Source: Gemmatimonadota bacterium (GTDB taxonomy: Bacteria; JAAXHH01). Taken from it: a DNA stretch of 61,655 nt. The notes under the pieces were generated by a model. The model ran no database searches. It was given only the letters and a program-made list of their open reading frames with translations, and was not told the origin of the DNA. Below, one piece after another: positions 41,002 through 58,098 of this stretch. The position numbers and the translations under genes are program-made. Each line of letters starts with the position of its first letter. The stretch's first letter is position 1. The DNA is taken from the NCBI GenBank assembly GCA_026706345.1, contig JAPOYX010000059.1, positions 1 to 61,655 on the forward strand, read 5' to 3'.

Positions 41002-41844
41002 TCAGCCCCGATCCGCAATCCTGCCTTCGGCGTAGGATCCCAGCAGCTTGAAGTTGGTCGTAATCTCCCGGAGATGGTTGAGCGCCCGGCTGCAGAGCAG
41101 GCTCTCCGCGTGCCCCTCGAAATCCAGGTAGAACAGGTATTCCCAGGGGGATCCGACCAGGGGCCGCGATTCGATCTTGTTGATGGAGATGTCCCGCAAC
41201 GCAAAGACGCTCATGGCCTTGAACAGCATGCCGGGCTCGTGGGGAACCGAGAAGACGATAGATGTCTTCAAGCGCTCGCCTTCCGATGGTTCCGCTTCCC
41301 GCCCCAGGACCAGGAAACGGGTATAGTTCTGGGTGTTGTCCTCAATCCCGTTCTCCAGGATTTCCAGGCCGTAGCGCTCTGCCGCCCGGGTGCTCGCGAT
41401 GACACCGACGTCCCGGGCCGCTCCCTCGCAGAGCATCTTGGCCGCGCCGCCGGTATCGTACACGGTTTCGGGTTTCAACGAAGGATGCTCCCGAAAAAAC
41501 CGCACGCACTGCTCCAGCGCCTTGGTATGGGACTGCACCCGCCGGAGTTCCTCCCGCCGGACACCCGGTTTCGCCATCAGGTTGTGGACGATGCGAAGTA
41601 CGATCTCGCCGACAATCTGCAGATCGTGCTCCTGCATCAGGTCGTAGTTGACGTGAATGCTGCCCGCCAGCGTGTTTTCGATGGGCAGCATCCCGTAGTC
41701 GCAGCGGCCCTGCTCCACGGCCCGGAAAACGTCGTCGAACCACCCGTGGGGCACGGGTTCCGCCCCGTCGCCGAAATACTCGAGCACCGCCATCTCGCTA
41801 AAGGCTCCCAGTTCACCCTGGAAGCCGGTCCTGTACTTCTTCAA
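41002..41844 (-). CDS. pheA: Prephenate dehydratase with ACT domain
   Basis: This enzyme converts prephenate to phenylpyruvate for Phe. The 280-residue chain has the PDT domain (GFQGELGAFSEMAVLEYFG, LPIENTLAGSIHVNYDLM, SHTKALEQC, NYTRFLVLG with the catalytic T-R-F) and a C-terminal ACT domain with the Phe-binding motif NKIESRPLVGSPWEYLFYLD. There is no chorismate mutase domain, so the separate aroH gene must supply it. The start is TTG at 41844, overlapping the tyrA stop (TTGA). It is the last gene of the aromatic cluster. Confidence 0.96.
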   Translation of the reverse strand: MKKYRTGFQGELGAFSEMAVLEYFGDGAEPVPHGWFDDVFRAVEQGRCDYGMLPIENTLAGSIHVNYDLMQEHDLQIVGEIVLRIVHNLMAKPGVRREELRRVQSHTKALEQCVRFFREHPSLKPETVYDTGGAAKMLCEGAARDVGVIASTRAAERYGLEILENGIEDNTQNYTRFLVLGREAEPSEGERLKTSIVFSVPHEPGMLFKAMSVFALRDISINKIESRPLVGSPWEYLFYLDFEGHAESLLCSRALNHLREITTNFKLLGSYAEGRIADRG

Positions 41845-42704
41845 TCCGTTCTCCTTTCGCCGGACACCGAGGTCCGGCCGTCCTTCGCATCCGTCAACAT
41901 CCTCACCAGTTCCGTTTCGTTTCCCTGTTCGATCTGCGCCGCCAGGTCGTCCAGCAACCGCCTGGCTTCCCCAACGGCGTTCAGCAAGGGTCCCCTGTTG
42001 GTCAGGCAGATGTCGGCCATCACGCGCACGTTGGACGCGGCCAGGCGGGTGGTGTCCCGGAATCCTGACGCGGTAAACTCCCCCGTCCGGCTTTCCCCAC
42101 GCGCCATGTCTTCCGCGGCGAGGGCCAGCACGACGGACAACAGGTAGGGAAGATGGCTGGTGATGGAGACGATCCGGTCGTGGCGTTCGGCGGAAATGAC
42201 GACGGGGCGGGCTCCGATCCGGCGAACCAGGCCCGTGAGCAGATCGACGGCCCCTTCGTCCACCGCAGGCGGCGGAACCAGGGCGAAAGTCGCCCCCCGC
42301 AACAACCCCTCATCGGCGTGTTCGATGCCGGAGTGCTCGGTACCCGCCATGGGATGGCCGCCGACGTACCGCCTGATGCCGGCCAGACCCGCGACGGTGG
42401 AGACGATGGCTTCCTTCGTGCTGCCCAGGTCGAAGAGGATCGTCTCGCGGCCGAGTATCGGTGCCAGGACGGGCAGCATCTCCAAGATGGATCGCACGGG
42501 CGTGGCGAGGACGACCATATCGGCCCCGGCCACGCCCTCGGCCGGTTCGAGGTACCCCACGTCAATAGCGCCGCGGGCCCGGGCCCGGTCCAGCGTGGCC
42601 CGATCGAGGTCGACGCCCGCGACGTGGTCCGCCGCTCCCGCCTTCCGGACCGCCATGCCGAAAGATCCGCCCAGCAGGCCCACGCCGATGATGGTGATTC
42701 GCAT
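41841..42704 (-). CDS. tyrA: Prephenate dehydrogenase
   Basis: The 287-residue NAD(P)-dependent enzyme starts at the ATG at 42704: MRITIIGVGLLGGSFGMAV with the Rossmann G-x-G-x-x-G. Family landmarks are VLATPVRSILEMLP, GHPMAGTEHSGIEHAD with catalytic His, SERHDRIVSITSHLPYLLSVVLA, and the GFRDTTRLAASN substrate loop. No ACT domain follows. It makes hydroxyphenylpyruvate for Tyr. It lies 8 bp after the DAHP synthase and overlaps pheA. Confidence 0.96.
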   Translation of the reverse strand: MRITIIGVGLLGGSFGMAVRKAGAADHVAGVDLDRATLDRARARGAIDVGYLEPAEGVAGADMVVLATPVRSILEMLPVLAPILGRETILFDLGSTKEAIVSTVAGLAGIRRYVGGHPMAGTEHSGIEHADEGLLRGATFALVPPPAVDEGAVDLLTGLVRRIGARPVVISAERHDRIVSITSHLPYLLSVVLALAAEDMARGESRTGEFTASGFRDTTRLAASNVRVMADICLTNRGPLLNAVGEARRLLDDLAAQIEQGNETELVRMLTDAKDGRTSVSGERRTD

Positions 42705-42712
42705 AACCCAAC

Positions 42713-43729
42713 TCAGCCGATGGTACGGTTCACTGCCGCCGCGACCGCCTGCAGTTCCGGAATCAGGGAGGTCAGCGCTTCCGGCGTCAGGGACTGGTCC
42801 CCGTCGGATAGCGCGCGCTCCGGGGTCGGATGCATTTCGATCATGAGCCCGTCGGCGCCGACCGCCACGGCCGCCCGGGACGCCGGTCCCACGAAATCCG
42901 CGTTGCCGGTCCCGTGGCTCGGGTCGATGAACACGGGCAGATGGGTGTATTTCTGCAACACGGGCACGGCCGAGATGTCGAGCGTATTCCGCGTCCACGT
43001 TTCAAACGTCCGTATGCCCCGTTCGCACAGGACGACGTTGTGGTTCCCCGCCGCCAGGATGTACTCGGCCGCCAGCAGCATCTCCTCGAGCGTGGCGGAC
43101 ATGCCCCGCTTGAGCATGACGGGCCTGGAACTCTGTCCCACCGCATTCAGCAGCGGGTAGTTCTGCATGTTCCTGGCGCCGATCTGCAGCATGTCCACGT
43201 ACTCCGACACCATGGGTTCCGTCTCCGGTTCCATCACCTCCGAGATGGTCGGCAGACCCGTTTCCTCGCTGACCCGGGCCATGATCTCGAGACCTTCCTT
43301 CCCGAGGCCCTGAAAACTGTACGGGGAAGTCCTCGGCTTGAACGCTCCGCCCCGTATGATGTGGGCCCCCGCCGCCCGCGCGTGCTGCGCCGCGGTCAGA
43401 AACTGGTCGTAGGATTCCACGGAACAAGGACCGGCGATGATGGTGATGCCGTCGCCGCCGACGGTAACATTGCCCACCTGAAACCTGGTCTTGTGCGGCT
43501 GTACCTCCCGGCTCACCAGCTTGTAGGGCCGCTGGATACGCTGGACCCGGTCCACTCCGTCCAGAATTTCAAACTGTTCCGGTGAAAGACTCAGGGTATT
43601 GCCGATGACGCAGATAATGGACATTTCGTCGCCCTGTATATCCCGTGGTTTACAGCCGAAGGTCCGGATGGTTTCCCGGACATGTTCCTTCTGTTCTTCC
43701 GTAGCCCCGAGTTTCATTACAACCACCAT
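42713..43729 (-). CDS. aroF: 3-deoxy-7-phosphoheptulonate synthase, class I-beta with N-terminal regulatory domain
   Basis: This is the first enzyme of the shikimate pathway (PEP plus erythrose-4-phosphate). From ATG 43729 the product is 338 residues. Residues 1-70 form a ferredoxin-like domain ([21 protein letters not shown]) as in the Thermotoga enzyme, where it mediates Tyr/Phe feedback. The barrel carries [49 protein letters not shown] and [11 protein letters not shown]. The start is 2 bp from the aroH stop, so the first pathway step is coupled to chorismate mutase. Confidence 0.96.
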
Positions 43730-43730
43730 T

Positions 43731-44096
43731 TCAACCTCCCTCGACAATGTCCGGCCGGAGCACGACGGCGCCGTCCAGGTACACATGCCGTATTTCACCC
43801 TGCGGTTTTTCCGTGTTTACATGAACCAGCACCCGTATGCACCCGGGAAGACTTCCGGGAACCTCCATCTCCTGCGTGCAGAACAGGGGAATCGCGGACC
43901 AACCCATCTGGCGCACGCCGTAAGCGGGGGTCTGCGCGTCGAGATCCTTCGTCGATGAAAAAAACACGCTGATGATCTGTTCCAATTCGATGCGGTTTCG
44001 TTCGACGATCGTTGTAAGCAACCGGCGCGATGCCTCGCAAATAGCTTCGGAGGTGTTCGATTCAGCGGTTATCGCGCCACGAATGCCTCGTACCAT
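43731..44096 (-). CDS. aroH: Chorismate mutase, AroH class
   Basis: The 121-residue trimeric-type chorismate mutase starts [19 protein letters not shown] with the active-site Arg of the B. subtilis AroH class. Conserved [33 protein letters not shown] and [10 protein letters not shown] follow. It produces prephenate for tyrA and pheA, which lie downstream on the same strand. A large hairpin sits in the 191-bp gap between it and trpA. Confidence 0.95.
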
Positions 44097-44287: not shown

Positions 44288-45109
44288 TTACTCCGGTGCG
44301 GTCACCGGGGTCTTGCCGTCTATGCCGGCTCTCAGTGAAGCCACGTATTCGCCCACGAGCCGGAGCAAGTCCGGTCCGCCGGCGTGTTCTTCCATCACGT
44401 TGATGATGGCGCTGCCCACGATGACCCCGTCGGCCAGCCGGGAGGCCTCATCGGCCTGTTCCGGCGACGATATGCCGAACCCCAGTCCAAGGGGCCGGTC
44501 CGTGCGGGACCGCACCTGCGCCATGAACTCGTTCACCCCGTCCGCAAGTTTTCCCCGGGCGCCCGTGACGCCGGTCAGGGAGACGCAGTAGACGAATCCC
44601 GTGGTATGCCGGTTCACCAGTTCGATCCGTGTCGCCGTGCTCGTGGGCGCCACCAGGAAGACGACGGTGAGTCCGTGCCGCCGGCAGGCGTCGGACAGTT
44701 CGGCGCCTTCTTCCGGCGGCAGGTCGGGCACGATCAGACCGTCCACGCCCGCGCGGGCCGCATCCCGGCAGAGGGCCTCGATCCCGTACGCGAGCACCGG
44801 GTTGTAATAGGTCATCAGGACGATCGGTATGGCGGACCGCTCCCGAATGGATCCGACCGTATCGACGATGTCCCGAAGGGTCGTGCCGTGGTCCAGGGCT
44901 CTTAGCGCGGCCCGCTGAATCGTGGGACCGTCCGCGATAGGATCCGAGAAGGGAACGCCCAGTTCGACCAGGTCGGCGCCCCGGCGGTCCATTTCCACGA
45001 CCAGCGCGGCGGTCGTTTCCAGGTCGGGGTCCCCCGCCATGACGTACGGAATCAGTGCCTTGCGATCCGCGGACTTGAGCGACGCGAAGGTCTCCTCAAT
45101 GCGGTTCAT
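44288..45109 (-). CDS. trpA: Tryptophan synthase alpha subunit
   Basis: TrpA releases indole from indole-3-glycerol phosphate. The 273-residue barrel shows LIPYVMAGDPDLETTAALV, ELGVPFSDPIADGPTIQRA (catalytic Glu and Asp), MTYYNPVLAYGIE, LIVPDLPPEEG, FVYCVSLTGVTGAR and GLGFGISSPEQA. The gene abuts trpB without any gap, the expected translational coupling of the alpha2beta2 complex. Confidence 0.97.
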   Translation of the reverse strand: MNRIEETFASLKSADRKALIPYVMAGDPDLETTAALVVEMDRRGADLVELGVPFSDPIADGPTIQRAALRALDHGTTLRDIVDTVGSIRERSAIPIVLMTYYNPVLAYGIEALCRDAARAGVDGLIVPDLPPEEGAELSDACRRHGLTVVFLVAPTSTATRIELVNRHTTGFVYCVSLTGVTGARGKLADGVNEFMAQVRSRTDRPLGLGFGISSPEQADEASRLADGVIVGSAIINVMEEHAGGPDLLRLVGEYVASLRAGIDGKTPVTAPE

Positions 45110-46315
45110 TCAACGCTCCATGCTCTCAGGGTCCATGAATCCGCAGACTTGCTGGACGTCCTTGTCCCCGCGGCCCGACAGCCCGGCGACAATGACCTGC
45201 TCCCGGCCCATCTCCGGGGCGATCCGGGCGATATGGCCGATGGCGTGGGCGCTTTCCAGGGCGGGTATGATGCCTTCGACCCTGGACAGCAGCTCGAAGG
45301 CCTCCAGCGCCTCGTCGTCGGTGACGCTGACGTATTCCGCCCGGCCGGCGTCTTTCAGGTAGCTGTGCTCGGGTCCCACCCCGGGGTAGTCCAGTCCCGC
45401 GGAAATGGAGTGAGCGACCTGGATCTGGCCATTCGCGTCCTGTCCCGTGTAGCTCATGGCGCCGTGCAATACACCCGGCGATCCCACGCCGAGCGTCGCG
45501 GCGTGCATGCCCGTATCGAGCCCGTGCCCCGCGCCTTCCACGCCGACCAGTCGGACGTCGTCGTCGAGAAAGGGATGAAAGAGTCCTATGGCGTTGCTGC
45601 CGCCCCCCACACAGGCGACGAGCACGTCCGGCAGCCGGCCTTCTTTTTCGAGGATCTGCTCGCGGGCTTCGCGGCCGATGACCGACTGGAAATCACGTAC
45701 CATCATGGGGAAGGGATGAGGCCCCGCCACCGACCCGATGATGTAGTGGGTATGACGTACATTCGTCGCCCAGTCGCGCAGGGCCTCGTTCAGCGCGTCC
45801 TTGAGCGTGCGGCTTCCCGCGTCGACGCCGATGACCCGGCTCCCCATGAGGCGCATGCGGAATACGTTCAGCGCCTGGCGTTCCATGTCCTCGGTCCCCA
45901 TGTAGACGTCGCATTCCAACCCGAAACGGGCGGCCACGGTCGCCGTGGCCACGCCGTGCTGCCCGGCCCCGGTCTCGGCGATGATCCGGGGTTTCTTCAT
46001 GCGCCGGGTCAACAGGATCTGGCCGATGGTGTTGTTGATCTTGTGGGCGCCCGTGTGGTTCAGATCTTCCCGCTTGAGATAAACCCGCGCGCCGCCGAGG
46101 GTCTCCGTCAGCCGTTCCGCGTAGTACAGCGGGGAAGGCCGGCCCACGTAATCTCCCAGGTAGTAGCGGAATTCAGCCTCGAATTCCGGGTCTCCCTTCG
46201 CGGTTTCATACACCTCGAGGAGTTCGTCGAGGGCCGTCATCAGCGTTTCCGGGACGTAGCGGCCGCCGAAGATTCCGAAATGCCCTCTTTCGTCGGGCAG
46301 TACGGTTGCTGTCAC
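45110..46315 (-). CDS. trpB: Tryptophan synthase beta subunit
   Basis: TrpB joins indole and serine with PLP. The start is GTG at 46315 (overlapping the aroQ stop as GTGA), giving 401 residues beginning with [24 protein letters not shown]. The PLP lysine lies in [18 protein letters not shown], with [20 protein letters not shown] and [15 protein letters not shown] as further landmarks. The upstream open frame is aroQ in another phase. It is the TrpB1 type that pairs with TrpA. Confidence 0.97.
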
Positions 46316-46758
46316 GCTTTGCTCCCATTCGCGACGTGATTCACCAGGGCTTCCAGGCCCAGCCGATAGCTGTCGCTGCCGTGTCCGCAAATCTGACCGA
46401 TCGCCACCGGTTCGATATAGGAATGGTGCCGGAAACTTTCCCGGGCGTGGATATCGGACATATGGACCTCCACGACGGGCAGGCCCACGGCGACGATCGC
46501 ATCGCGCAGGGCGATGCTCGTGTGCGTGTACGCGCCGGGGTTGATCAGGATCCCGTCCGCCCACCCGAGGGCCTGCTGAATCTCGTCCACCAGCACGCCT
46601 TCGTGATTGGACTGAAGAATGCGCAACTCGACTCCCCGTCCCGCCGCGGCCGACCGGAGGGACCGGTTGATGTCATCCAGCGTATCGGTACCGTAGACCT
46701 CCGGCTCCCGGACGCCCAGCATGTTCAGATTCGGACCGTGCAGCACGAGTATTTTCAT
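46312..46758 (-). CDS. aroQ: Type II 3-dehydroquinate dehydratase
   Basis: The 148-residue dodecamer-type enzyme starts at ATG 46758: [23 protein letters not shown], including the catalytic Tyr-containing flexible loop. [31 protein letters not shown] and [19 protein letters not shown] carry the remaining active-site residues. It makes 3-dehydroshikimate. It is 35 bp after aroKB and overlaps trpB. Confidence 0.97.
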
Positions 46759-46793: not shown

Positions 46794-48416
46794 TCAGGTT
46801 CCCGAGGTCAGGACAGACCGGATGTATTCTTCGGGTACATCGTCGCGGATGGCCACCTCCCCTATCCGGTTCGGCAGGATGAAACGCAGGCGGCCCCCGA
46901 CCGACTTCTTGTCGAACTTCATGGTTTCGATGGTCCCGGAGACGTCCAGTCCGTCGCAACGGATGGGCAGCCCCACTCGCCTGACAAGGTCGGCGAGGCG
47001 TCGGACGCTCCTGCCGTCCAGCATGTCCATGCGTTCCGCCACGCGGGCCGCGTAGACCATGCCGATCGCAATGGCCTCCCCGTGCAGCATGCCGGTCTGC
47101 GTCTCGATGGCATGGCCCATGGTATGGCCGAAGTTGAGTATGGCCCGCCGCCCCAGTTCGCGCTCGTCAGCGGCGACTACTTCCGCCTTGATCTCGCAGG
47201 AACGGGCCACCAGGTGCGCCAGGGCGCCGTGGTCCCGCCCGAGTATCTCGTCAAGGCGACCCTCAATATAGACGAAAAGACCGGCGTCTGCAATGACCCC
47301 ATACTTGATCACTTCCGCCATGCCCGCGCGCAGTTCCCGGTCCGGCAGGCTGTCGAGCGTATCCAGGCTGGCCAGTACGAGCAGGGGCTGGTAGAACGCG
47401 CCGATCAGGTTCTTCCCGCGCCGGTGGTCCACGGCGACCTTGCCGCCCACGCTGGCGTCCACCTGGGCCAGGAGGGAAGTAGGCGCCTGTATGAACGGTA
47501 TGCCGCGCAGGAAGGTGGCCGCGGCGAAGCCGGTCAGGTCCCCGATCACCCCGCCGCCCAGCGCGACGACGGGGGAACGGCGGTCCATGCGGTGGGACAG
47601 CATCGCGTCGTAGAGCTTCTCGGCCCACTGCAGCGATTTCTGCGCCTCGCCTTCCGGCACCTCGACCAGGTCCGGTTCGAAGCCGGCCGACCGCAGGGAG
47701 TCCGTCGTCCGTTCTCCATAGCGTTCCGAGATACCCGGATGGGTTACGACCAGCGCGCGATCGGTCAGGTCGAACGATCTCATCAGGGAGCCCAGGCGGT
47801 CGAGACACTCGGGCCCGATCACGATATCGTAGCTGTCGGTCTCCAGGTCCACCCGGATCACGCGCTCGCTGTTTCCGGTCCATGCCATGACCATCTCCAC
47901 GGTCTCGTCTAGCGTATGACGTGACGTATCTACTTCGTGGTCAGCCCGGGCGTAGGCCGGCGCGCGCTCCCGTTGAAGCGACCGGATCCGCTCCAGCGGA
48001 TCGTCACCGGCCAGAAGGGGCCGCACCCCGGCGTCGCCTTTCGTGCGTGCCAGGATCGTCGACGCCCGCGCGCTCAGGTGAATGACCGAGCCGAGGGATT
48101 TGAGCATATCGAAGTTGTCCGGATCGAGTACTGCTCCCCCGCCCGTGGCGATCACCCGGCGCTCCCCATCGGCGAGGCCGTGAATGACCTCTTTCTCGAT
48201 CGCCCGGAAGCCGGTCTCGCCCCGCGTCTTGAAGAGCGTCGGAATACTCGTCGCGGTCTTCTCCTCGATCAGGGTGTCGGTATCCACGAAGGGCACGCCG
48301 AGTACGCCTGCCAGCCGTCGGCCCACCGCCGTCTTCCCGGTGCCCATGAAGCCGATCAGGACGATACCGCCCGCTTTCTTCCGTTCTGTTTTCCCCACGT
48401 CTAACCTGCCTGTCAT
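46794..48416 (-). CDS. aroKB: Fused shikimate kinase / 3-dehydroquinate synthase (AroKB)
   Basis: This single 540-residue polypeptide holds two non-consecutive shikimate-pathway activities. The shikimate kinase domain (about 1-170) has P-loop [15 protein letters not shown], the shikimate site DTDTLIE and GGGAVLD. The AroB domain (about 185-540) shows [51 protein letters not shown], the NLIGAFYQP metal region and [11 protein letters not shown]. The linker is short. ATG 48416 is preferred, with GAGG upstream; a GTG lies two codons before it. Such AroKB fusions are known in some lineages. Confidence 0.95.
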
Positions 48417-48479
48417 GCGCACCTCAGTCCGTGTAGTCCGACGGTCGCGCGCGCTTTCGGTAGAGATCTGGATGATCCA

Positions 48480-49637
48480 CTAGTAACGGGCCAACTGGTC
48501 CTTGTAGCCCAGGTAGTTCCGCTTCATCTCCTCCAGACTGTCACCGCCGAATTTCTCCTGCATGGCGTCGGCGATGACGAAGGCCACCACCGCTTCGCCG
48601 ATCACGCCGGCCGCGGGTACGGTGCAGACGTCCGAACGCTCCTTGGCGGAATCGAAGGCTTCCTTGGTCTCGATATCCACCGACATGATGGTGCGCATCA
48701 GGGTCGCGATGGGCTTGAGGGCGCCGCGGACGACGATTTCCTCGCCTTCGGTCATGCCGCCCTCGATGCCGCCGGCCCGGTTCGTCTTTCGGCAGAATCG
48801 GTCGCCGCCGTAGAAGATCTCGTCATGGACCTCGGAACCGAGGACCCGGGTCACCCCGAAGCCCAATCCGATCTCTACGCCCTTCACGGCCTGGATGCTC
48901 ATGACCGCCTGGGCCAGTCGTCCGTCGAGCTTGCGGTCCCACTGCACGTGGCTGCCCAGACCGGGGGGCACACTCAACACCTTGACCTCGAAGACGCCGC
49001 CGATCGTGTCCTTGAGGGACTTCGCCCGGTCGATTTCTCCGATCATCTTCTGCGCGGCGTCCGCATCGGCGCAGCGCACGGGCGACGCCTCGGCCCTATC
49101 CCGGATTTCTTCGTTGGAAAGTCCGCTCACGTCCGCGTCCACCTGTCCGATACGGACGACGTGGCTGAGCACATGGATACCGAACTCCGACAGCAACGAC
49201 CGGGCGATCGCGCCGACCGCCACCCGCATGGTCGTCTCCCGGGCGCTGGCCCGCTCCAGGATGTCCCGCAGGTCGCGGCGGTCGTATTTCAGTCCGCCCG
49301 CCAGGTCGGCATGTCCCGGCCGGGGCCGTGTCACCTGGCGCCTTACCGGTCCATCGGCCTCCTCGATCGACATCACGTCCGTCCAGTTCTTCCAGTCCTG
49401 GTTCTGCACTACCAGGGAAACCGGGCCGCCCATGGTCTTTCCGTGGCGCACGCCGCCCCGGATTTCGATCGTATCGGTCTCGATCTGCATTCTGCGGCCC
49501 CGCCCATATCCGCCCTGGCGCCGTTTCAGGTCGCGGTTGATCTCGTCCGCCGCGACCGGAACCCCCGCGGGCAGTCCTTCGAGGATCGCGGATATTGCCG
49601 GTCCGTGAGATTCTCCTGCGGTCAGGTATCGTAACAT
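48480..49637 (-). CDS. aroC: Chorismate synthase
   Basis: AroC eliminates phosphate from EPSP using reduced FMN. The 385-residue protein starts MLRYLTAGESHGPAISAILEGLPAG and shows RRQGGYGRGRRMQIETD, GVRHGKTMGGPVSL and RPRPGHADLAGGLKYDRRDLRDILERASARET, then GEAVVAFVIADAMQEKFGGD. The EPSP synthase that makes its substrate is not present in the window. The 111-bp gap to aroE contains a CGGTCCG/CGGACCG hairpin near 49661-49681. Confidence 0.97.
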   Translation of the reverse strand: MLRYLTAGESHGPAISAILEGLPAGVPVAADEINRDLKRRQGGYGRGRRMQIETDTIEIRGGVRHGKTMGGPVSLVVQNQDWKNWTDVMSIEEADGPVRRQVTRPRPGHADLAGGLKYDRRDLRDILERASARETTMRVAVGAIARSLLSEFGIHVLSHVVRIGQVDADVSGLSNEEIRDRAEASPVRCADADAAQKMIGEIDRAKSLKDTIGGVFEVKVLSVPPGLGSHVQWDRKLDGRLAQAVMSIQAVKGVEIGLGFGVTRVLGSEVHDEIFYGGDRFCRKTNRAGGIEGGMTEGEEIVVRGALKPIATLMRTIMSVDIETKEAFDSAKERSDVCTVPAAGVIGEAVVAFVIADAMQEKFGGDSLEEMKRNYLGYKDQLARY

Positions 49638-49748: not shown

Positions 49749-50642
49749 TTATACCGGTTGCCCCGTATGACCGGTTTCTTCCCGGCCTGCCCGGCACAGC
49801 AACTGATCTTCCAGGGCGCTTCTCATCACCTCGACCGGCGCCGGCCGGCCAGTCCAGATTTCAAAGGACGCCGCACCCTGAAACAGCAGCATATCGATAC
49901 CGTTCGACGCCCCCGCGCCCCGGGACCGGGCGCACCGGATCAACGCGGTTTCCTCCTGGTCGTAACGCGTGTCGTAGACGAACTGGTCCGCTTTGAACCA
50001 GTCCCCATCCAGGGTCAGGTCCGTGGGGATCGCGTTGATGACCAGGTCGGCGTTCCCGAGCGCCGGACCCAGTTCGTGCGACGACAGGGAGACCACCGAA
50101 GCGTCTCCCAGTTGTGCGGTGTCACGGGCCCGTGACGCGTTGCGCGCGGCTATGGCAATCGAACCGGCGCCCGCCTGCTTCGCCAGATCGCAGGCCGCGC
50201 GGGCCGCACCGCCCGCGCCCAGGATCAGCACCTTCGAATCCCTGATGTCGATCCCCTTGTCCTCAAGCGCCCGCAGCATTCCGGCGCCGTCCGTCGAAGC
50301 GCCGGCGAGCCGGCCCGAACGATTGACGATGGTATTGACCGAACCGATCCTCCGGGCCTCGTCGGACACCTCGTCCAGGAAGGGCAGCACGTCGGTCTTG
50401 AGCGGCTTGGTCACGTTGACGCCCGCCAGCCCGAGTCCCCGGATCCCGTCCACCGCCTGCCGAACGGCGGTCGCCGCGATTTCGAAGGTTACATACACGT
50501 AGTCCAGTCCGCAATGCCGAAAGGCGGCGTTGTGCATGGCCGGCGAAAGGGTGTACCCGATGCCCCTGCCGCATACGCCTACCACGCGGGTCGAACCGGA
50601 AATAGCAAGCCCGGGGGGGCTGGCTTCGTTTCGCGTGATCAT
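49749..50642 (-). CDS. aroE: Shikimate dehydrogenase (NADP+)
   Basis: From ATG 50642, which overlaps the trpF stop by 4 bp, the product is 297 residues. The shikimate-binding N-terminal domain has GYTLSPAMHNAAFRH and GVNVTKPLKTDVLPFLDEVS with the catalytic Lys-Asp. The Rossmann domain has ILGAGGAARAACDLAKQAGAG. LINAIPTDL-like and YDTRYDQEETALIRCA, GIDMLLFQGAASFEIWTG complete the pattern. It reduces 3-dehydroshikimate. Confidence 0.96.
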   Translation of the reverse strand: MITRNEASPPGLAISGSTRVVGVCGRGIGYTLSPAMHNAAFRHCGLDYVYVTFEIAATAVRQAVDGIRGLGLAGVNVTKPLKTDVLPFLDEVSDEARRIGSVNTIVNRSGRLAGASTDGAGMLRALEDKGIDIRDSKVLILGAGGAARAACDLAKQAGAGSIAIAARNASRARDTAQLGDASVVSLSSHELGPALGNADLVINAIPTDLTLDGDWFKADQFVYDTRYDQEETALIRCARSRGAGASNGIDMLLFQGAASFEIWTGRPAPVEVMRSALEDQLLCRAGREETGHTGQPV

Positions 50643-51253
50643 GTCGCGCCCCTCGCGGCCTCCACAAAGGCCCGGATCTTTCCGTGGTCCTTGAGGCCCG
50701 GTTCCCGTTCCACGCCGCTTCCCGTGTCCACGGCGTAGGGCCGCACGCTCCGCACGGCATCCGCCACGTTCCGCGGATTCAGTCCGCCGCTCAGTATGAT
50801 GCGGTGGGGACTGCCTTCCACGAGGCGCCAGTCGAATGGAACGCCCGTACCGCCGTACCGGTCTTCGGCGAAAGTATCGAGCAACACCGCGCCGACGGCA
50901 TAGGCCGCGGCATCGGACTTCCAGGATTCGTCCCTGACGCGAAGGGCCTTGATGACGGGACGGTCCAGTTTGCTGCAAAAGCCCGGCGATTCGTCGCCAT
51001 GAAGCTGTGCGACCTGGACGCCCGTGTACCCGCAGACTTCGTCAACCTCGTCGACCGTCGCGTTCACGAGTACGCCTACCGGGACGACGAAAGGCGGCAG
51101 GCCGTCCACGATTGCCGCGGCCCGCTCCGGCTCCACGTATCGGGGGCTGCCTGCGTAGAAAATGAATCCCAGGGCGTCCGCGCCCGCATCGACCGCTGTG
51201 GCGGCGTCCGCTTCGTTCGTGATGCCGCAAATCTTGATCTTGACCGTGTTCAT
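50639..51253 (-). CDS. trpF: Phosphoribosylanthranilate isomerase
   Basis: The 204-residue barrel starts at ATG 51253 with VKIKICGITNEADAATAVDAGADALGFIFY, including the catalytic Cys. VQLHG-like AQLHGDESPGFC, LLDTFAEDRYGGTG with the catalytic Asp, and IILSGGLNPRNV follow. It is 23 bp downstream of trpC and overlaps aroE. The long open frame to 51790 is trpC in another phase. Confidence 0.97.
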   Translation of the reverse strand: MNTVKIKICGITNEADAATAVDAGADALGFIFYAGSPRYVEPERAAAIVDGLPPFVVPVGVLVNATVDEVDEVCGYTGVQVAQLHGDESPGFCSKLDRPVIKALRVRDESWKSDAAAYAVGAVLLDTFAEDRYGGTGVPFDWRLVEGSPHRIILSGGLNPRNVADAVRSVRPYAVDTGSGVEREPGLKDHGKIRAFVEAARGAT

Positions 51254-51276
51254 AGTTCTATCCGCAGAGAGATCAC

Positions 51277-52077
51277 TCAGGCCCCGCGTCCTGTTCGCGC
51301 AGGCACCCGGCCCAGCAGGGCGTCCAGTTGGTGACCAATCCCGTCCGCCGCCATCAGGGACTCGCCCACGAGTACGGCGTCGAATCCCGCCTGCTGCAGG
51401 AGCAGGACGTCCTCCCGTGTGTAGATCCCGCTCTCGCCGACGGTGACGATCCCATCGGGAATGCGCGGTCTCAGGCCCAGTGAAGTATCCAGCGAAACCG
51501 TGAAATCCTTCAGGTCCCGGTTGTTGACGCCGATGATGCGGCTTCCGGCTTCCAGGGCCCGGTCCAGCTCCCGCTCGTCGTGTACTTCCACCAGGCAGTG
51601 CAGGCCGTATGCCGCCGCGGTCTGCTGCAGGGCTTTCAGGCGGGCGTCGTCCAGGACCGCAACGATCAGCAGCAGGGCGTCCGCGCCCATGGACGCGGTT
51701 TCGTGGACCTGGTATTCGTCCACAATGAATTCCTTGCGCAACACCGGCACCGGCACGCTCCGGCGAAGCGCCACCAGGTCCTCGTCGCACCCCTGGAAGA
51801 ACCGCGTGTCCGTCAACACCGAAATGGCCGAGGCTCCGTGAGCCGCGTATACCGGCCCGATCTCATCGGGGATCGCATCGGGACGTATCGCGCCTTTAGA
51901 CGGCGAAGCCTTTTTGAATTCGGCGATGACTCCGATACCGTCCCCCTGCTTCAACGCCTGGTCGAAGGGCCGAAGGTCCACGCGGCGCCCGGGCTCGACA
52001 AGGGGCAACGGATTGCGGCTCTTGCGGTCCTCGACCTCACGTATCTTGTGCGCTACGATCTGGTTCAGAATATCCAT
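51277..52077 (-). CDS. trpC: Indole-3-glycerol phosphate synthase
   Basis: The 266-residue barrel begins MDILNQIVAHKIREVEDRK (ATG 52077; another start at 52101 is less family-like). VIAEFKKASPSKGAI, SVLTDTRFFQGCDEDL, PVLRKEFIVDEYQV, LLIVAVL, VEVHDERELDRA, IGVNNRDLKDFTV and GESGIYTREDV are the standard motifs. It is separate from TrpF, unlike the E. coli fusion. Confidence 0.97.
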   Translation of the reverse strand: MDILNQIVAHKIREVEDRKSRNPLPLVEPGRRVDLRPFDQALKQGDGIGVIAEFKKASPSKGAIRPDAIPDEIGPVYAAHGASAISVLTDTRFFQGCDEDLVALRRSVPVPVLRKEFIVDEYQVHETASMGADALLLIVAVLDDARLKALQQTAAAYGLHCLVEVHDERELDRALEAGSRIIGVNNRDLKDFTVSLDTSLGLRPRIPDGIVTVGESGIYTREDVLLLQQAGFDAVLVGESLMAADGIGHQLDALLGRVPARTGRGA

Positions 52078-52128
52078 GGCTGCCACGCTTACCTGTCGCA
52101 CTCCTCACTCCAGTCGAGTTCCGGTTGC

Positions 52129-53139
52129 CTATTCGTTGGTCATCCTGATCAACGCGTCGAGCTTTTCCAGGGCCGCGCCGGAGTCGATCGCCCGGGCCGC
52201 CCTGGCGATACCTTCGTCGAAATCCTCCGCCCGGCCGCCGGCAACGATCGCCGCGGCGGCATTGAGCAGGACGATGTCCCTGCGGGGACCCTCTTCTCCG
52301 GCCAGGACGGTCCGGATGATCGCCGCGTTCTCATCTACCTCGCCGCCTTTCAAATCCTCGATGGAAGCCCGTGGCAGGCCGAAGTCTTCCGGCGCGACAT
52401 CGTAGGTCCTGACCGTGCCGTCCCGGACTTCCGCCACGTGGGTGGACGCCGTGATCGTGATTTCGTCCAGTCCGTCCGCGCTGTGCACCACGAAGGCGCG
52501 CTCCGCCCCCAGGTTGTTCAGTACGTGCGCCGCGGTCTGGACGACGCTTCCGTCGTACACGCCCATGACCTGCGCCGTCGTACCGGCCGGATTGGTCAGC
52601 GGTCCCAGGAGGTTGAGCACCGTCCGCACGCCGAGTTCCCTGCGCGGCCCGCTGGCGAAACGCATGGCCGAATGGAGGGCGGGGGCGAACATGAAACCGA
52701 TGCCTATTTCATCGATGCAAGCCGACACTTGTTCGGGCGGTATCTCGATATTCACGCCAAGGGCCGTCAGAACGTCGGCGCTGCCCGCCTTGCTGGATGC
52801 CGCGCGGCCGCCGTGCTTGGCGATGAAGGCGCCACCGGCCGCGGCCACGAAGGCCGCCGCCGTCGATATGTTGAAGGTATGCTTCCCGTCGCCTCCCGTA
52901 CCGCAGGTGTCCACGATGGGGTAGGCGCGGCAGTCGATCCGCGTGGCCCTGGCGCGCATGACCCGGGCGAAGCCGGTGACTTCCTCGATCGTCTCGCCCT
53001 TCAGACGAAAGGCGACCAGCAAGGCGCCGATCTGCGCCGGCGTCGCGTCGCCGGACATGATGCCTTCCATGACCTCCATCGCTTCCGCCTCGGTCAGCGA
53101 AACGCCCTCGATGGCTTTAGCTATCGCTTGTTGAACCAT
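52129..53139 (-). CDS. trpD: Anthranilate phosphoribosyltransferase
   Basis: The ATG at 53139 is chosen for its family-like start MVQQAIAKAIEGVSLTEAEAMEVMEGIMSG-type sequence and a nearby AAGGA; the ATG at 53166 would add nine residues. Hallmarks: VDTCGTGGDGKHTFNISTAAAFVAAAGG (PRPP loop), KHGGRAASSKAGSADVL, LGPLTNPAGTTAQVMGVYD and HSADGLDEIT. About 336 residues. No glutamine-amidotransferase domain here; it is fused to TrpE instead. Confidence 0.96.
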   Translation of the reverse strand: MVQQAIAKAIEGVSLTEAEAMEVMEGIMSGDATPAQIGALLVAFRLKGETIEEVTGFARVMRARATRIDCRAYPIVDTCGTGGDGKHTFNISTAAAFVAAAGGAFIAKHGGRAASSKAGSADVLTALGVNIEIPPEQVSACIDEIGIGFMFAPALHSAMRFASGPRRELGVRTVLNLLGPLTNPAGTTAQVMGVYDGSVVQTAAHVLNNLGAERAFVVHSADGLDEITITASTHVAEVRDGTVRTYDVAPEDFGLPRASIEDLKGGEVDENAAIIRTVLAGEEGPRRDIVLLNAAAAIVAGGRAEDFDEGIARAARAIDSGAALEKLDALIRMTNE

Positions 53140-53175
53140 GAATTCCTTAACCCCGTCGGGTGACATCAGGCCGGT

Positions 53176-55401
53176 TCACGGGTTGCCCTCCCGGCCGGCG
53201 TCTACCTTATCAGCCACGGGAACCAGTTTCCTGAAGAGGTTGCCGATGAGACGAAGGCCGATTCTGTCTTTGAGCGTCATAATGGACTCGGGATGAAACT
53301 GGACCGCCGCCACCGGCAGCGTGCGGTGCTCGACGGCCATGACGATCCCGTCGTCCGATTCTGCCGTGACCGAAAGATCCAGCGGCAGTCGTTCCCGCTC
53401 GGCGTACAGCGAATGATACCGGCCCACGGTGAATGAAGGGGGAAACCCTTCGAATAGTGCCCCGGCCCGCCCGCCCCTAACGATCACGCGTGATTCTTTC
53501 CCGTGCACGGGATAGGGCAGTTCTCCCAGCGTTCCGCCGAAATACTCTACGATGCCCTGGAGCCCGAGGCAGACGCCGAATACCGGCAGCGACCGTTCCA
53601 GCGCGGCGTCGATGGCCAGCGCCACGTCGAAATCCGACGGTTGGCCGGGGCCGGGCGACAGAAACACCAGGTCCGGATCGTAGGCATCCATGAGGTCCGT
53701 CAGGCGGGACCGCGAGAACCCGGTTCTGACCGTCAATACGTCGGCGCCGGTCTGACGAAGATAGTTGGCCAGGGTATGCACGAATGAATCTTCGTAGTCC
53801 ACCAGAAACACCCGTTTCCCCACACCCGAGTCTTCCGCGGAACCGGGATGCTGTGTCCCCCCTCCTGATCCGCGGGGACGCCTGATCGCATCGATGAACG
53901 CCATGGCCTTGAGTTCGGTCTCGCGCTCCTCGTCCTCGGGACTGGAGTCCATCAGCAGCGTGCTTCCGGCTCTTACCTCGGCAATACCGTCCTTAATGCG
54001 AATGGTCCGAAGCGTCAGGCCCGTGTTCATGTTCCCGTCGAACCCCAGGAAGCCTATCGCCCCGCCGTACCACGCGCGGCAGGACCTTTCGTGATTTTCG
54101 ATGAACCGCATGGCCCAGATTTTCGGCGCGCCCGTAACGGTGACCGCCCAGGCGTGGGAGAGGAAGGCGTCCAGGGCATCATACTCCGGCCGCAGAATGC
54201 CTTCCACGTGATCGACCGTGTGTATCACCCTCGAGTACATCTCGATCTGCCGACGGCCGATGACGCGGACGCTTCCGGGCACGCATACCCGCGACTTGTC
54301 GTTCCGGTCCACGTCCGTACACATGGTCAGTTCCGAGTCCTCTTTCTCCGAACTCAGCAGCTTGAGGATCTGGTCGGCGTCGCTCAGCGCGTCGTTCCCC
54401 CGGCTTACCGTGCCTGCAATAGGACAGGTCTCGATGCGGATGCCCTCACCCCGGACGAACATCTCGGGTGAAGCGCCGACCAGGTATTCCCGCTGTCCCA
54501 GGTTTACGAGCGTGGCGTACGGCGCGGGGTTCCGCTCCCTGAGGCGCCGGAAGATCTCGGAAGGCGGGTCGGGGCATGATTCGTAAAAGGTCTGGCTGGG
54601 CACGACCTCGAACAAATCGCCTCTCCTGAAGTATTCGTGCGCCTTGCGGACGACATCCCCATACGCGCCCTTCTCGAATTCCCTGCCCGTCGCGGCGCGA
54701 CCTCCCCGATAGGGTTGAACGGCGCCCTCCCGGGGCAGGTCCTGCGTGGATTCGCCGCCCGTTTCGAACTCGTAATCGTACCGGATGGCCACCTCGCGAT
54801 TGTGATCGATGGTCACCAGCCGGTCGGGCAGGTACAGCACCAGGTCCCGCTGGTCCGCCGGCCGGCGCAGGCGGTAGTCCATCGGTTCGAATTGAAACGC
54901 AAGATCGTAACCGAAGGCGCCGTAAAGGCCGAGATGGTGCTCGTCCGGACAGGAGAACAGACCGATGATTCCGCGCAGGATCGAAAATATGGAGGGTTGT
55001 CTGCTGCGCTGTTCTTCCGGGAAATACGCGTCGGGCAGAAGCACTTCGCCGCTGATGCGGTCTTCCTGGCGGGAAAGGGTATCCGTTACCCGCAACCCTT
55101 CGATCTGCCCATGAATCGCAGGCAGCAACACCTTACCCCGCGCATTCAAGGCCAGGACATGAAACGAGTTCTTCCGGGATTCGATCCGGATCGGCGGATC
55201 GACGAACCCCATGTCCCACCGGGTATACCTTCCGGGATATTCATAACCCGACGCGAACAAGGCGCCCGGATGCGAATCGAGGCCGTCGACCACGGGCTCG
55301 ATGGCTTCGTCCGGCGAGAGGTGCTGGGCGTAACGCTTGACCGAAACGCCGCCCTCGGTCTGGTATTCGATGGCTTCGAGATGGATATGGGTAACACGCA
55401 T
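53176..55401 (-). CDS. trpEG: Fused anthranilate synthase TrpE-TrpG
   Basis: This single 741-residue polypeptide converts chorismate and Gln to anthranilate. The TrpE part (about 1-515) has FEVVPSQTFYE, PAPYATLVNLG, GASPEMFVRGEG, ETCPIAGTVSRG, DVDRNDKSRVC and VTGAPKIWAMRFIE, GAIGFLGFDG. A linker (about 516-530) leads to the TrpG domain: VFLVDYEDSFVHTLANYL, LVFLSPGPGQPSDFD, nucleophile C611 in GVCLGLQGIVEYFGG and the His-Glu pair in AVQFHPESIMTL. The same fusion is known in rhizobia and Azospirillum, where it is controlled by attenuation. Here too a leader peptide and terminator precede it. Confidence 0.96.
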   Translation of the reverse strand: MRVTHIHLEAIEYQTEGGVSVKRYAQHLSPDEAIEPVVDGLDSHPGALFASGYEYPGRYTRWDMGFVDPPIRIESRKNSFHVLALNARGKVLLPAIHGQIEGLRVTDTLSRQEDRISGEVLLPDAYFPEEQRSRQPSIFSILRGIIGLFSCPDEHHLGLYGAFGYDLAFQFEPMDYRLRRPADQRDLVLYLPDRLVTIDHNREVAIRYDYEFETGGESTQDLPREGAVQPYRGGRAATGREFEKGAYGDVVRKAHEYFRRGDLFEVVPSQTFYESCPDPPSEIFRRLRERNPAPYATLVNLGQREYLVGASPEMFVRGEGIRIETCPIAGTVSRGNDALSDADQILKLLSSEKEDSELTMCTDVDRNDKSRVCVPGSVRVIGRRQIEMYSRVIHTVDHVEGILRPEYDALDAFLSHAWAVTVTGAPKIWAMRFIENHERSCRAWYGGAIGFLGFDGNMNTGLTLRTIRIKDGIAEVRAGSTLLMDSSPEDEERETELKAMAFIDAIRRPRGSGGGTQHPGSAEDSGVGKRVFLVDYEDSFVHTLANYLRQTGADVLTVRTGFSRSRLTDLMDAYDPDLVFLSPGPGQPSDFDVALAIDAALERSLPVFGVCLGLQGIVEYFGGTLGELPYPVHGKESRVIVRGGRAGALFEGFPPSFTVGRYHSLYAERERLPLDLSVTAESDDGIVMAVEHRTLPVAAVQFHPESIMTLKDRIGLRLIGNLFRKLVPVADKVDAGREGNP

Positions 55402-55476: not shown

Positions 55477-55513
55477 AAACAAAAAAGGCCGCTACCTTGT
55501 AAGGGTAGAGGCC
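55477..55513 (-). terminator. Intrinsic terminator of the trp attenuator
   Basis: In the transcript sense the hairpin is GGCC-T-CTACC, a short loop, GGTAG-C-GGCC, followed at once by a U-rich run (TTTTTTGTTTT). It lies 33 nt after the leader-peptide stop and 75 nt before the trpEG ATG. An 11-bp inverted repeat (55457-55467 with 55519-55529) encloses it. Confidence 0.85.
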
Positions 55514-55546
55514 GGTCAAATCAACGAAGTGATGAATCTACTTCAA

Positions 55547-55666
55547 TCAGGCGCCGCTTCGCATGACATGCCGCCTCGTCCCATAAAAAGGCCACCAGGT
55601 AAACAGATCGCTCTGCTTCCACCAATAGTTGAAACGGGATGACCGGGAGGAGTTAACGGCTGTCAT
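55547..55666 (-). CDS. trpL: Tryptophan operon leader peptide (39 codons, two Trp-Trp pairs)
   Basis: On the minus strand an ATG at 55666 opens a 39-codon frame ending in TGA at 55549-55547. Residues 14-17 read YWWK and 23-27 read TWWPF, so four of 39 codons are Trp, in two adjacent pairs. In a genome where Trp is rare this is strong evidence for a stalling leader. It lies 48 nt after the predicted transcription start and directly before the terminator at 55477-55513. Codons 29-32 (GGGACGAGGCGG) could pair with the 5' arm of the terminator (55503-55515) as an antiterminator. Confidence 0.85.
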   Translation of the reverse strand: MTAVNSSRSSRFNYWWKQSDLFTWWPFYGTRRHVMRSGA

Positions 55667-55720
55667 TTCGATCCAATGTCTGATGTGGAACCCTTTCGAC
55701 TACCGATTGTAGATTGCGGC

Positions 55721-55749
55721 AATATAGCGTGGTCCGCCAGTCAAGTCAA
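55721..55749 (-). promoter_or_regulatory. Putative sigma70 promoter of the trp/aromatic cluster
   Basis: Minus strand TTGACT (55749-55744), a 17-nt spacer, TATATT (55726-55721). The start is expected near 55714. The promoter, leader peptide and terminator together explain the otherwise empty 265 bp before trpEG. Confidence 0.7.
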
Positions 55750-55816
55750 GGATTTTTGTCACCAAGAAAACAGTTGCGATTTCAGGGGTGAGCCTGTACC
55801 ATGCAGGCGTTGTCGA

Positions 55817-55945
55817 GCAGTCCGAGCCGGCCTTTGGAATCGGGCTTCGCGAACCATTGTGGCAGTCCGAGCCGGCCTTTGGAATCGGGCTTCGCGAACC
55901 ATTGTGGCAGTCCGAGCCGGCCTTTGGAATCGGGCTTCGCGAACC
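55817..55945. repeat. 45-bp tandem repeat, nearly three copies
   Basis: Identical units begin at 55817, 55862 and 55907 (start GCAGTCCGAGCCGGCC); the third is cut after 39 bp. A degenerate fourth copy can be followed to about 55990. This fills much of the 365-bp gap between the trp promoter and the DUF624-like gene. The many overlapping open frames across it, on both strands, simply reflect the 45-bp period; I see no real gene. Nothing else was recognised in 55750-56031. Confidence 0.93.
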
Positions 55946-56031: not shown

Positions 56032-56712
56032 ATGCCGGACAAGGAACCCGGACTGTTCAGAAAGTGGTTCTGGAATACCTATGATTACCTGGGAACGCTG
56101 ATCGTGATCAACATCCTGTGGCTGTTGCTTGCCCTGCCGCTGGTTACCCTTCCTCTCGCCTTCGCCGGACTGTTCCGCGTCACCGGACGGATCGCCGCCT
56201 ACGAAGAAACCGGCATACGGGATTTCTTCTCCCACACGCGGGAGGACCTCGGCCGGAACTTCAGCATCTGCGGACTGTACGCAGGCGTCCTGTTGCTCCT
56301 TGCGGCCAATGTGCTTTTCTACGTACGGCTCATAGACGCATGGCCCTGGGTGGGCGCGATCCTGGGCGGCGTGATGATGTGGCTGATCGTCTTCGTCTGC
56401 ATGACGGCCGTTTACGTCCTCCCGCTCATGCAGCGGAGTAAAACCCCGGTAAGGCAGATCGTCCGGTCGGGCGTATTCCTGGTCGTAGACAACCCGCGGT
56501 ACGCCTTCATGCTGTTGTTTTGCGGGTCCGTTGCCATGGCCTTCAGCCTGGCCAGCGGCGTCGGCCTGCTGTTCCTGGGCGTCGGGGCCGTCGGCGTGCT
56601 GTTCAGCACCGGACTGAGAGAGACGCTGAAACGATACGATAAAGCGGACGAGGACGTACTGGAAGAAGCGCGGGGATGGCGGGACCTGCTCCGTCCATGG
56701 GGGTATTCATGA
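56032..56712 (+). CDS. DUF624/YesL-like integral membrane protein
   Basis: The 226-residue protein has about five hydrophobic spans: 22-45 (GTLIVINILWLLLALPLVTLPLA), 82-100, 107-130, 158-175 and 178-192. The WFWNTYDYLGTLIVINILWLL start and the GLFRVTGRIAAYEETGIRDFF loop resemble the DUF624 (YesL) family, which is linked to sugar ABC loci in other bacteria. Function is unknown. Its stop overlaps the tmk start by ATGA, so the two are likely cotranslated. Confidence 0.75.
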   Translation: MPDKEPGLFRKWFWNTYDYLGTLIVINILWLLLALPLVTLPLAFAGLFRVTGRIAAYEETGIRDFFSHTREDLGRNFSICGLYAGVLLLLAANVLFYVRLIDAWPWVGAILGGVMMWLIVFVCMTAVYVLPLMQRSKTPVRQIVRSGVFLVVDNPRYAFMLLFCGSVAMAFSLASGVGLLFLGVGAVGVLFSTGLRETLKRYDKADEDVLEEARGWRDLLRPWGYS

Positions 56713-57603: not shown

Positions 57604-58098
57604 ATGCTTAGAAACTTCACCTGGGTCATCCCCCGGCGCCTGGCCGGCATGGCCCTGCCCACGAGTGCGTATCGAACGCGTGCGGGTGGACTGACGGACC
57701 GGGCCCTGGAACGGGACCTGATGAGCCTGAAAGCACTGGGCGTGAGCACCGTGGTGTCCCTGACGCGCGAGCCGCTCCACGAGGAGACGCTGGACCACTG
57801 CGGTCTCCGTTGCCTGCACGTTCCCGTGGAGGACATGACGGCGCCTTCTCCGGAACAGATTCGCAGGGCTGTCCAATATATAGATGAACATATAGATCAG
57901 GGCGGCGTGGTCGTGCACTGCATGGCGGGCATAGGCCGGACCGGAACCGTGCTGGCCGGGTATCTCGTCTGGCGGGGGTCCACGCCGGAAGCCGCCATAG
58001 CGGAAATCAGAAACAATCGGCCCGGGTCGGTCGAGACCTTCGACCAGGAATCGTCGATCTTTCAATTCGCCGAGTCCATGGCCGAGTACGGCGCGTAA
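57604..58098 (+). CDS. Dual-specificity / tyrosine phosphatase family protein
   Basis: The 164-residue protein carries the CX5R signature HCMAGIGRTG with nucleophile C106 and R112, and a likely general acid D77 in PVEDMTAPS. The fold is that of compact cysteine-dependent phosphatases (DSP/PTP-like), which may act on proteins, phosphoinositides or other small phosphates. It lies in a plus-strand run between the small membrane protein and a sugar-isomerase gene. Confidence 0.9.
   Translation: MLRNFTWVIPRRLAGMALPTSAYRTRAGGLTDRALERDLMSLKALGVSTVVSLTREPLHEETLDHCGLRCLHVPVEDMTAPSPEQIRRAVQYIDEHIDQGGVVVHCMAGIGRTGTVLAGYLVWRGSTPEAAIAEIRNNRPGSVETFDQESSIFQFAESMAEYGA

Follow-up and report, generated by a model that had tools for sequence, protein, structure and literature searches.

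A predicted ribosome-mediated attenuator before an aromatic gene cluster in Gemmatimonadota, kept while the anthranilate synthase gene behind it was swapped

Genes for trp, aro, tyrA, and pheA are gathered in one 14.4-kb cluster behind a short leader in a stretch of 61,655 nucleotides from a Gemmatimonadota bacterium (contig JAPOYX010000059.1 of assembly GCA_026706345.1, hereafter referred to as the window). On the minus strand, a promoter, a 39-codon leader ORF, an antiterminator, a terminator, and trpEG follow one another in 5' to 3' order. A first-pass annotation had described the promoter, the ORF with Trp-Trp (WW) pairs at codons 15-16 and 24-25, and the terminator as a ribosome-mediated trp attenuator before trpEG. 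All of these elements were recovered at their places on the minus strand, and the comparisons and folding models described below supported the reading: the trp-aro-tyr-phe cluster is very probably controlled by a ribosome-mediated transcription attenuator. A longer antiterminator, a supraoperon, and a gene replacement were found in addition. The leader includes the following features:

55721..55749, minus strand: promoter TTGACT-17-TATATT, sigma-70-like, 10 of 12 consensus matches
55547..55666, minus strand: leader ORF of 39 codons, MTAVNSSRSSRFNYWWKQSDLFTWWPFYGTRRHVMRSGA; all 16 genomes have an equivalent open frame
55657..55666, minus strand: putative 5' protector, the first ten bases of the ORF, which in the fold pairs with 55563-55573 if the leader is untranslated
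55619..55624, minus strand: codons 15-16, WW here and W-R in 11 of 12 genus genomes; the pair is not conserved
55592..55597, minus strand: codons 24-25, a WW pair kept throughout the genus (12 of 12 genomes); these are the predicted control codons and lie at the 3' limit of the window that permits antitermination
55557..55582, minus strand: antiterminator 5' arm (segment 2), codons 29-37, from fold and alignment
55503..55529, minus strand: antiterminator 3' arm (segment 3), overlapping the terminator 5' arm, from fold and alignment
55481..55513, minus strand: GGCCTCTACC-loop-GGTAGCGGCC followed by a T tract, an intrinsic terminator found in all 16 genomes, with 9 of 9 pairs invariant

The terminator hairpin spans 55513-55487 and is followed by T6. 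In the genus, the leader has by eye an apparently weak Shine-Dalgarno sequence, consisting of GGA only, and the fold of the free leader RNA was unexceptional, with a z of -1.53 and 14 of 200 shuffles folding at least equally well.

The comparison set consisted of 16 genomes of the lineage from five genera, where 12 genomes belong to the genus of the window and four (G012 to G015) to other genera. The leader, the terminator, and trpE were found in the same order in all 16 genomes and all five genera. A DNA search returned the leader strongly in 13 genomes, and it was recognized in G012, G014, and G015 by reading the sequence upstream of trpE. The promoter, TTGAC[TA] and TATA[AT]T, had a spacing of 16-17 nt in 15 genomes and 15 nt in G014. 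The attenuator reading could have failed if relatives that keep the terminator had lost the leader frame or its Trp codons; instead, the frame was open, with start and stop in place and at least two Trp codons, in every genome. The terminator pattern occurred exactly once per genome, and a reversed control pattern occurred in none. A covariance model (R1), built from eight leaders and applied with strict filters, matched 16 of 153 genomes, all of them from the taxonomic order of this lineage, and these 16 include the eight training sequences. The best match to a second leader copy in the 16 genomes, among the matches listed, had an E-value of 0.026. Additionally, no homologous leader was seen before the housekeeping trpS at any of the six loci (of 16) inspected, within at most 400 nt before the open frame; the upstream regions at L096 and L111 carry short Trp-bearing frames unlike the leader, and that at L103 carries a terminator-like string.

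A scan of a wider genome collection with the terminator pattern returned 13 stretches, 12 of them from genomes of the lineage. The match from Nanosynbacter showed a similar terminator and, by eye, an integrase-like frame, with no leader or trpE seen, and was set aside as an apparently unrelated terminator.

Within the genus, the leader has been held nearly constant. In codons 17-39, 21 of 23 codons were invariant over 12 congeneric genomes, as compared to 14, 14, 15, and 13 of 23 in the best windows of trpD, tmk, aspS, and aroC, respectively (aroC from 11 genomes and aspS over 209 shared codons). All four-fold sites in these leader codons were identical (1.00), as compared to 0.74 in trpD, 0.82 in tmk, 0.83 in aspS, and 0.74 in aroC. 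Pairing in two alternative structures explains most of this constancy, though not that of the loop between the antiterminator arms (55530-55556), which is nearly invariant in the genus though unpaired in the model and is not conserved between genera.

The antiterminator of the first-pass annotation, with 3+5+2 base pairs, one internal loop, and one bulge, was reproduced by ViennaRNA, and it proved to be longer than described, as codons 33-37 also pair with bases from 55529 on. The full hairpin joins codons 29-37 to the stretch ending in the terminator 5' arm and contains 22 pairs. A sequence-only alignment of eight leaders, four from the 12 congeneric genomes and four from the genomes outside the genus, covers all five genera and placed both arms in register. 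Of the 174 cells in these eight of the 16 sequences, 85.1% held standard pairs, as compared to 37-53% in slid versions; the pairing figures are favored because the structure was drawn from the same eight sequences. Covariation in relatives had been proposed as a check. Compensatory changes were observed, as five of the 22 antiterminator pairs were changed on both sides, which was reached by one of 500 shuffles (each double change is in one cell, and two of the five rest on G015), but the covariation term of RNAalifold was unfavorable at +0.51 kcal/mol. Unaided, RNAalifold recovered the distal part of the antiterminator and the terminator. Some pairs fail in individual taxa: two inner pairs (columns 36-37) in the genus, where the fold bridges the gap with a bulged register; the outer and several distal pairs in G012, where the distal arm seems by eye to be shifted by one column; and most distal pairs in G015. 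All nine terminator pairs were invariant, which is expected because the terminator arm must pair twice.

The effect of ribosome position on these structures was predicted by folding the RNA with the ribosome footprint removed, under the rule, assumed from established knowledge, that the end of the footprint and the first base of the codon in the A site are 13 nt apart. In three genus members (G000, G006, and G004), the predicted probability of the terminator was 0.01-0.02 with W24 in the A site, 0.62-0.82 with W25, 0.99 with the stop codon, and 0.99 without a ribosome. It was 0.01 at W23 in G013. With the terminator complete, the probability at the last Trp codon was 0.75 in G012, 0.84 in G014, and 0.90 in G015, and in these three genomes the last Trp codon favored the upstream pairing only before segment 4 was transcribed. 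In folds of the RNA as it stands prior to transcription of segment 4, all five genera had their last Trp codon one to four codons before the point at which segment 3 stops pairing upstream, an edge that was chosen after the profiles had been seen. The predicted switch is thus clear in the genus of the window and in G013 (two of five genera) and weaker in G012, G014, and G015. Ribosomes stalled much earlier in the frame, at positions starting from about codon 5-11, were also predicted to permit antitermination in the genus. Since this is so, structure alone does not explain a specificity for Trp, and the decisive codon in the cell would depend on which tRNA runs short.

The following sequence of events is proposed. 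RNA polymerase would start downstream of 55721 and make the leader with its 39-codon ORF. If charged tRNA-Trp is short, a translating ribosome would pause when W24 (or W25) enters its A site, and its footprint would end around codon 28-29, so that codons 29-37 would stay free, pair with the stretch that includes the terminator 5' arm, and allow transcription to continue. If Trp is plentiful, the ribosome would reach the stop codon, segment 2 would be unavailable in time, and the terminator would form. If the leader is untranslated, its first ten bases may pair with codons 32-36, and the terminator would again form; in the fold, this 5' protector pairing with 55563-55573 leaves the terminator free.

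The two WW pairs differed in their conservation. The pair at codons 24-25 was present in 12 of 12 genus genomes, and WW was found nowhere in the leaders of the four genomes outside the genus. At codons 15-16, WW occurred in the window strain only; codon 16 is Arg (CGG) in the other 11 genus members, so a single C-to-T change appears to have created the first WW in the window strain. Outside the genus, the four genomes carry two or three single, spaced Trp codons in the contexts FTWRPFYG, FVWRPFYP, FTPWYFYG, and FTRWFFTG. Hence, two separate WW stall sites, which the first-pass annotation had read as the layout of the leader, represent a strain-level change. Trp-richness alone is weak evidence for such a leader, because small Trp-bearing ORFs are common by chance: among 224 ATG ORFs of 30-50 amino acids taken from five regions, the leaders themselves included, 53 contained at least two Trp codons, seven contained at least four, and four contained WW.

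The cluster behind the leader includes the following genes:

53176..55401, minus strand: trpEG, fused anthranilate synthase (TIGR01815 clade 3), 1103 bits
53162..53179, minus strand: probable scar of an auxiliary trpS, resembling the first six codons (by eye)
52129..53166, minus strand: trpD, likely start 53139 (by eye)
51277..52101, minus strand: trpC
50639..51790, minus strand: trpF ORF, family match at residues 182-380
49749..50978, minus strand: aroE ORF, where the family match begins at about residue 128
48480..49637, minus strand: aroC
46794..48422, minus strand: aroKB (shikimate kinase and dehydroquinate synthase)
46312..46758, minus strand: presumably aroQ (type II dehydroquinase), an assignment made by eye from its motif
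45110..46315, minus strand: trpB, start read from the sequence
44288..45109, minus strand: trpA
43731..44096, minus strand: aroH, chorismate mutase (PF07736)
42713..43729, minus strand: DAHP synthase, start read from the sequence
41841..42998, minus strand: tyrA ORF (prephenate dehydrogenase), where the family match begins at about residue 98
41002..41844, minus strand: pheA, prephenate dehydratase, the last cluster gene, followed by a convergent NFACT gene

Within the cluster, aroA was the sole gene of the path from DAHP to chorismate that was not recognized. The order aroKB, trpB, trpA, aroH, DAHP synthase, tyrA, and pheA was found in 10 of 10 further genomes with a contig that reaches there (G001-G006, G008, G009, G011, and G013); in G012 the cluster could be traced as far as aroH, where the contig ends, and G007, G010, G014, and G015 lie outside this count. 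Outside the gene-order query, aroQ was seen by eye in six other genomes. No promoter-like site was found inside the cluster on either strand, where 2.6 were expected by chance, and eight terminator-like sites were found, three of them on the minus strand, where 8.8 were expected. The whole 14 kb would presumably be transcribed as one unit. Neither TrpR nor TRAP was found at an E-value of 0.001 in the 16 genomes (83-99% complete), while the controls were detected in E. coli and B. subtilis (the latter for TRAP).

Several other features of this region were observed. In G012 and G013 (L092 and L123), about 1.5 kb of unannotated sequence lies between trpA and aroH, which is absent from the genus. 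Upstream of the trp promoter, a GCAAC..TTTTCT element (55764-55777, minus strand) was present in 16 of 16 genomes at a varying distance, and it perhaps belongs to the promoter of the divergent operon. The divergent intergenic region also contains a 45-bp tandem repeat in nearly three perfect copies (55817-55945), and GC-rich repeats resembling it by eye lie upstream in G008 and G010. A protein that appears hydrophobic by eye (56032-56712, plus strand; no Pfam match at 1e-8) is encoded beside tmk, and a dual-specificity phosphatase-like protein (57604-58098, plus strand) near tmk, in all 16 genomes.

The leader has outlasted an exchange of the enzyme gene that follows it. The family cut-off for fused trpEG was passed in 10 of the 16 genomes, and six fell below it. 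In five of these six, trpE and trpG are separate genes, and in G015 the contig ends inside trpE. The six non-fused TrpE proteins share 60-93% identity with one another and about 30-43% with the fused protein over the matched stretch, and gene order is kept on both sides of the leader as far as the contigs reach. In a tree of seven neighboring genes, including trpD and aroC (four of the seven missing in one to three of the 16 genomes), the non-fused G004 grouped with the fused G010 with a support of 99, and the position of G005 was weak (45-46). One clean division of the genus into a fused and a non-fused clade was rejected (AU p = 0.02). The housekeeping trpS was present in 16 of 16 genomes. 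An auxiliary trpS, about 30-35% identical to it, lies between trpEG and trpD in the other nine of nine fused genomes, and its absence from the window strain could be a true deletion or an assembly effect.

Alternative readings of the leader have to be weighed against this background. A plain terminator, or another RNA sensor such as a T-box or a TRAP site with the ORF being incidental, would fit the terminator as the most conserved element and the abundance of chance Trp-codon ORFs. However, no Rfam match was obtained for a T-box, the sole Rfam match being sub-threshold and on the other strand, no TRAP gene was found, the frame with start and stop is kept in 16 of 16 genomes, and a Trp codon lies near the switch edge in five of five genera; such an explanation is very improbable. 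Similarly improbable is a Trp-sensing arrest peptide, for which TnaC is a precedent, where free Trp in the ribosome rather than uncharged tRNA would set the stall. The residues around W-R/W-P-F are common to three genera, as an arrest peptide might show, but the C-terminal end is not shared across genera, the constraint also acts at the nucleotide level, and the logic would be reversed for a biosynthetic operon, since a Trp-induced stall would switch it on. A role of the terminated leader RNA in trans, as a small RNA, could explain why about 130 nt of the leader region, including a loop that the antiterminator does not use, are nearly invariant in the genus, and rnTrpL of Sinorhizobium offers a precedent (PMC7298713). 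Two-way pairing covers most of this invariance, however, and the loop is not conserved between genera, which makes a trans-acting RNA unlikely, if less so than the previous two readings.

A further proposal extends the attenuator reading rather than replacing it. All three aromatic amino acids are products of the cluster, and for this reason a ribosome slowed at Phe codons, and also at Tyr codons, in the permissive window may relieve termination as well. The cluster holds aroE, aroC, aroKB, aroQ, aroH, DAHP synthase, tyrA, and pheA, and the leaders as a whole are rich in F/W/Y in all five genera (p = 0.001-0.006), with an enrichment of F+Y against stop-free windows of the same regions (p = 0.05, 0.016, 0.0015, 0.003, and 0.028). 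The eight codons before the switch point contain 3, 3, 4, 5, and 4 F/W/Y in the five genera. Against this, the genus of the window, represented by G006, has only one F or Y in those eight codons (p = 0.26), with Y28 beyond the edge; U-rich codons may serve the RNA structure; and the five genera share ancestry and were compared at an edge picked after seeing the profiles. Such multivalent sensing is possible but less likely than not. Slightly more doubtful still is the full combination, in which one leader integrating Trp, Phe, and Tyr supply would control a nearly complete aromatic supraoperon without TrpR or TRAP, and would have outlived a replacement of the anthranilate synthase genes that apparently happened repeatedly, with an auxiliary Trp-tRNA synthetase gained and lost in the same operon.

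The ribosome-mediated attenuator is thus the preferred reading, and its parts can be compared to known systems. The Rfam trp leader family, which we take to be RF00513, gave no covariance-model match among those listed up to an E-value of 10, and no description of this leader was found among the listed matches in the open-access literature, which does not establish its absence from print. The E. coli trpL is the classical proteobacterial trp attenuator. In Actinobacteria, trp leaders carry double or triple UGG runs, and their attenuators have strongly conserved triples in segments that pair twice (PMC1262725). Like both of these, the present leader combines a Trp-codon ORF with an antiterminator and a U-tracted terminator that exclude each other, before trp genes. 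Unlike the UGG runs described there, WW is found in one genus and spaced single Trp codons in four. In contrast to classical attenuators, four of the five genera have an antiterminator arm that falls within the ORF, and aro, tyrA, and pheA are part of the cluster.

A comparison with rhizobia, made in the first-pass annotation, held in part. The trpLE(G) of Sinorhizobium meliloti has a 14-aa leader and attenuation without transcriptional repression (PMC7298713). Attenuation before a fused trpE(G), very probable here, is common to both systems, and the terminated RNA could persist here as well. In contrast, the leader here has 39 codons, matches no Rfam family, and precedes a distant non-fused trpE as well as the fused gene, with trpD and others in one cluster. 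Leader-peptide attenuation has also been described for the his leader of bacilli (PMC2965389) and Rli60 of Listeria (PMC5864092), which places ribosome-mediated attenuation beyond Proteobacteria and Actinobacteria, for other amino acids and in other phyla. With the present leader, leader-peptide attenuation backed by covariation reaches a lineage that is represented here by metagenome assemblies only.

The B. subtilis operon is the TRAP-controlled case of trp genes inside an aro supraoperon; no TRAP gene was found here, and a leader peptide appears in its place. Aromatic supraoperons, including predicted attenuators of tyrA supraoperons, have been described (PMC1173090), and as in those, trp is merged here with aro and tyrA under one attenuation point. 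The mechanism of attenuation is itself textbook, and what stands out is the regulon, along with an enzyme gene exchanged beneath a frozen leader. The locus represents a leader retained under enzyme-gene exchange and a testable case of one leader for all three aromatic amino acids.
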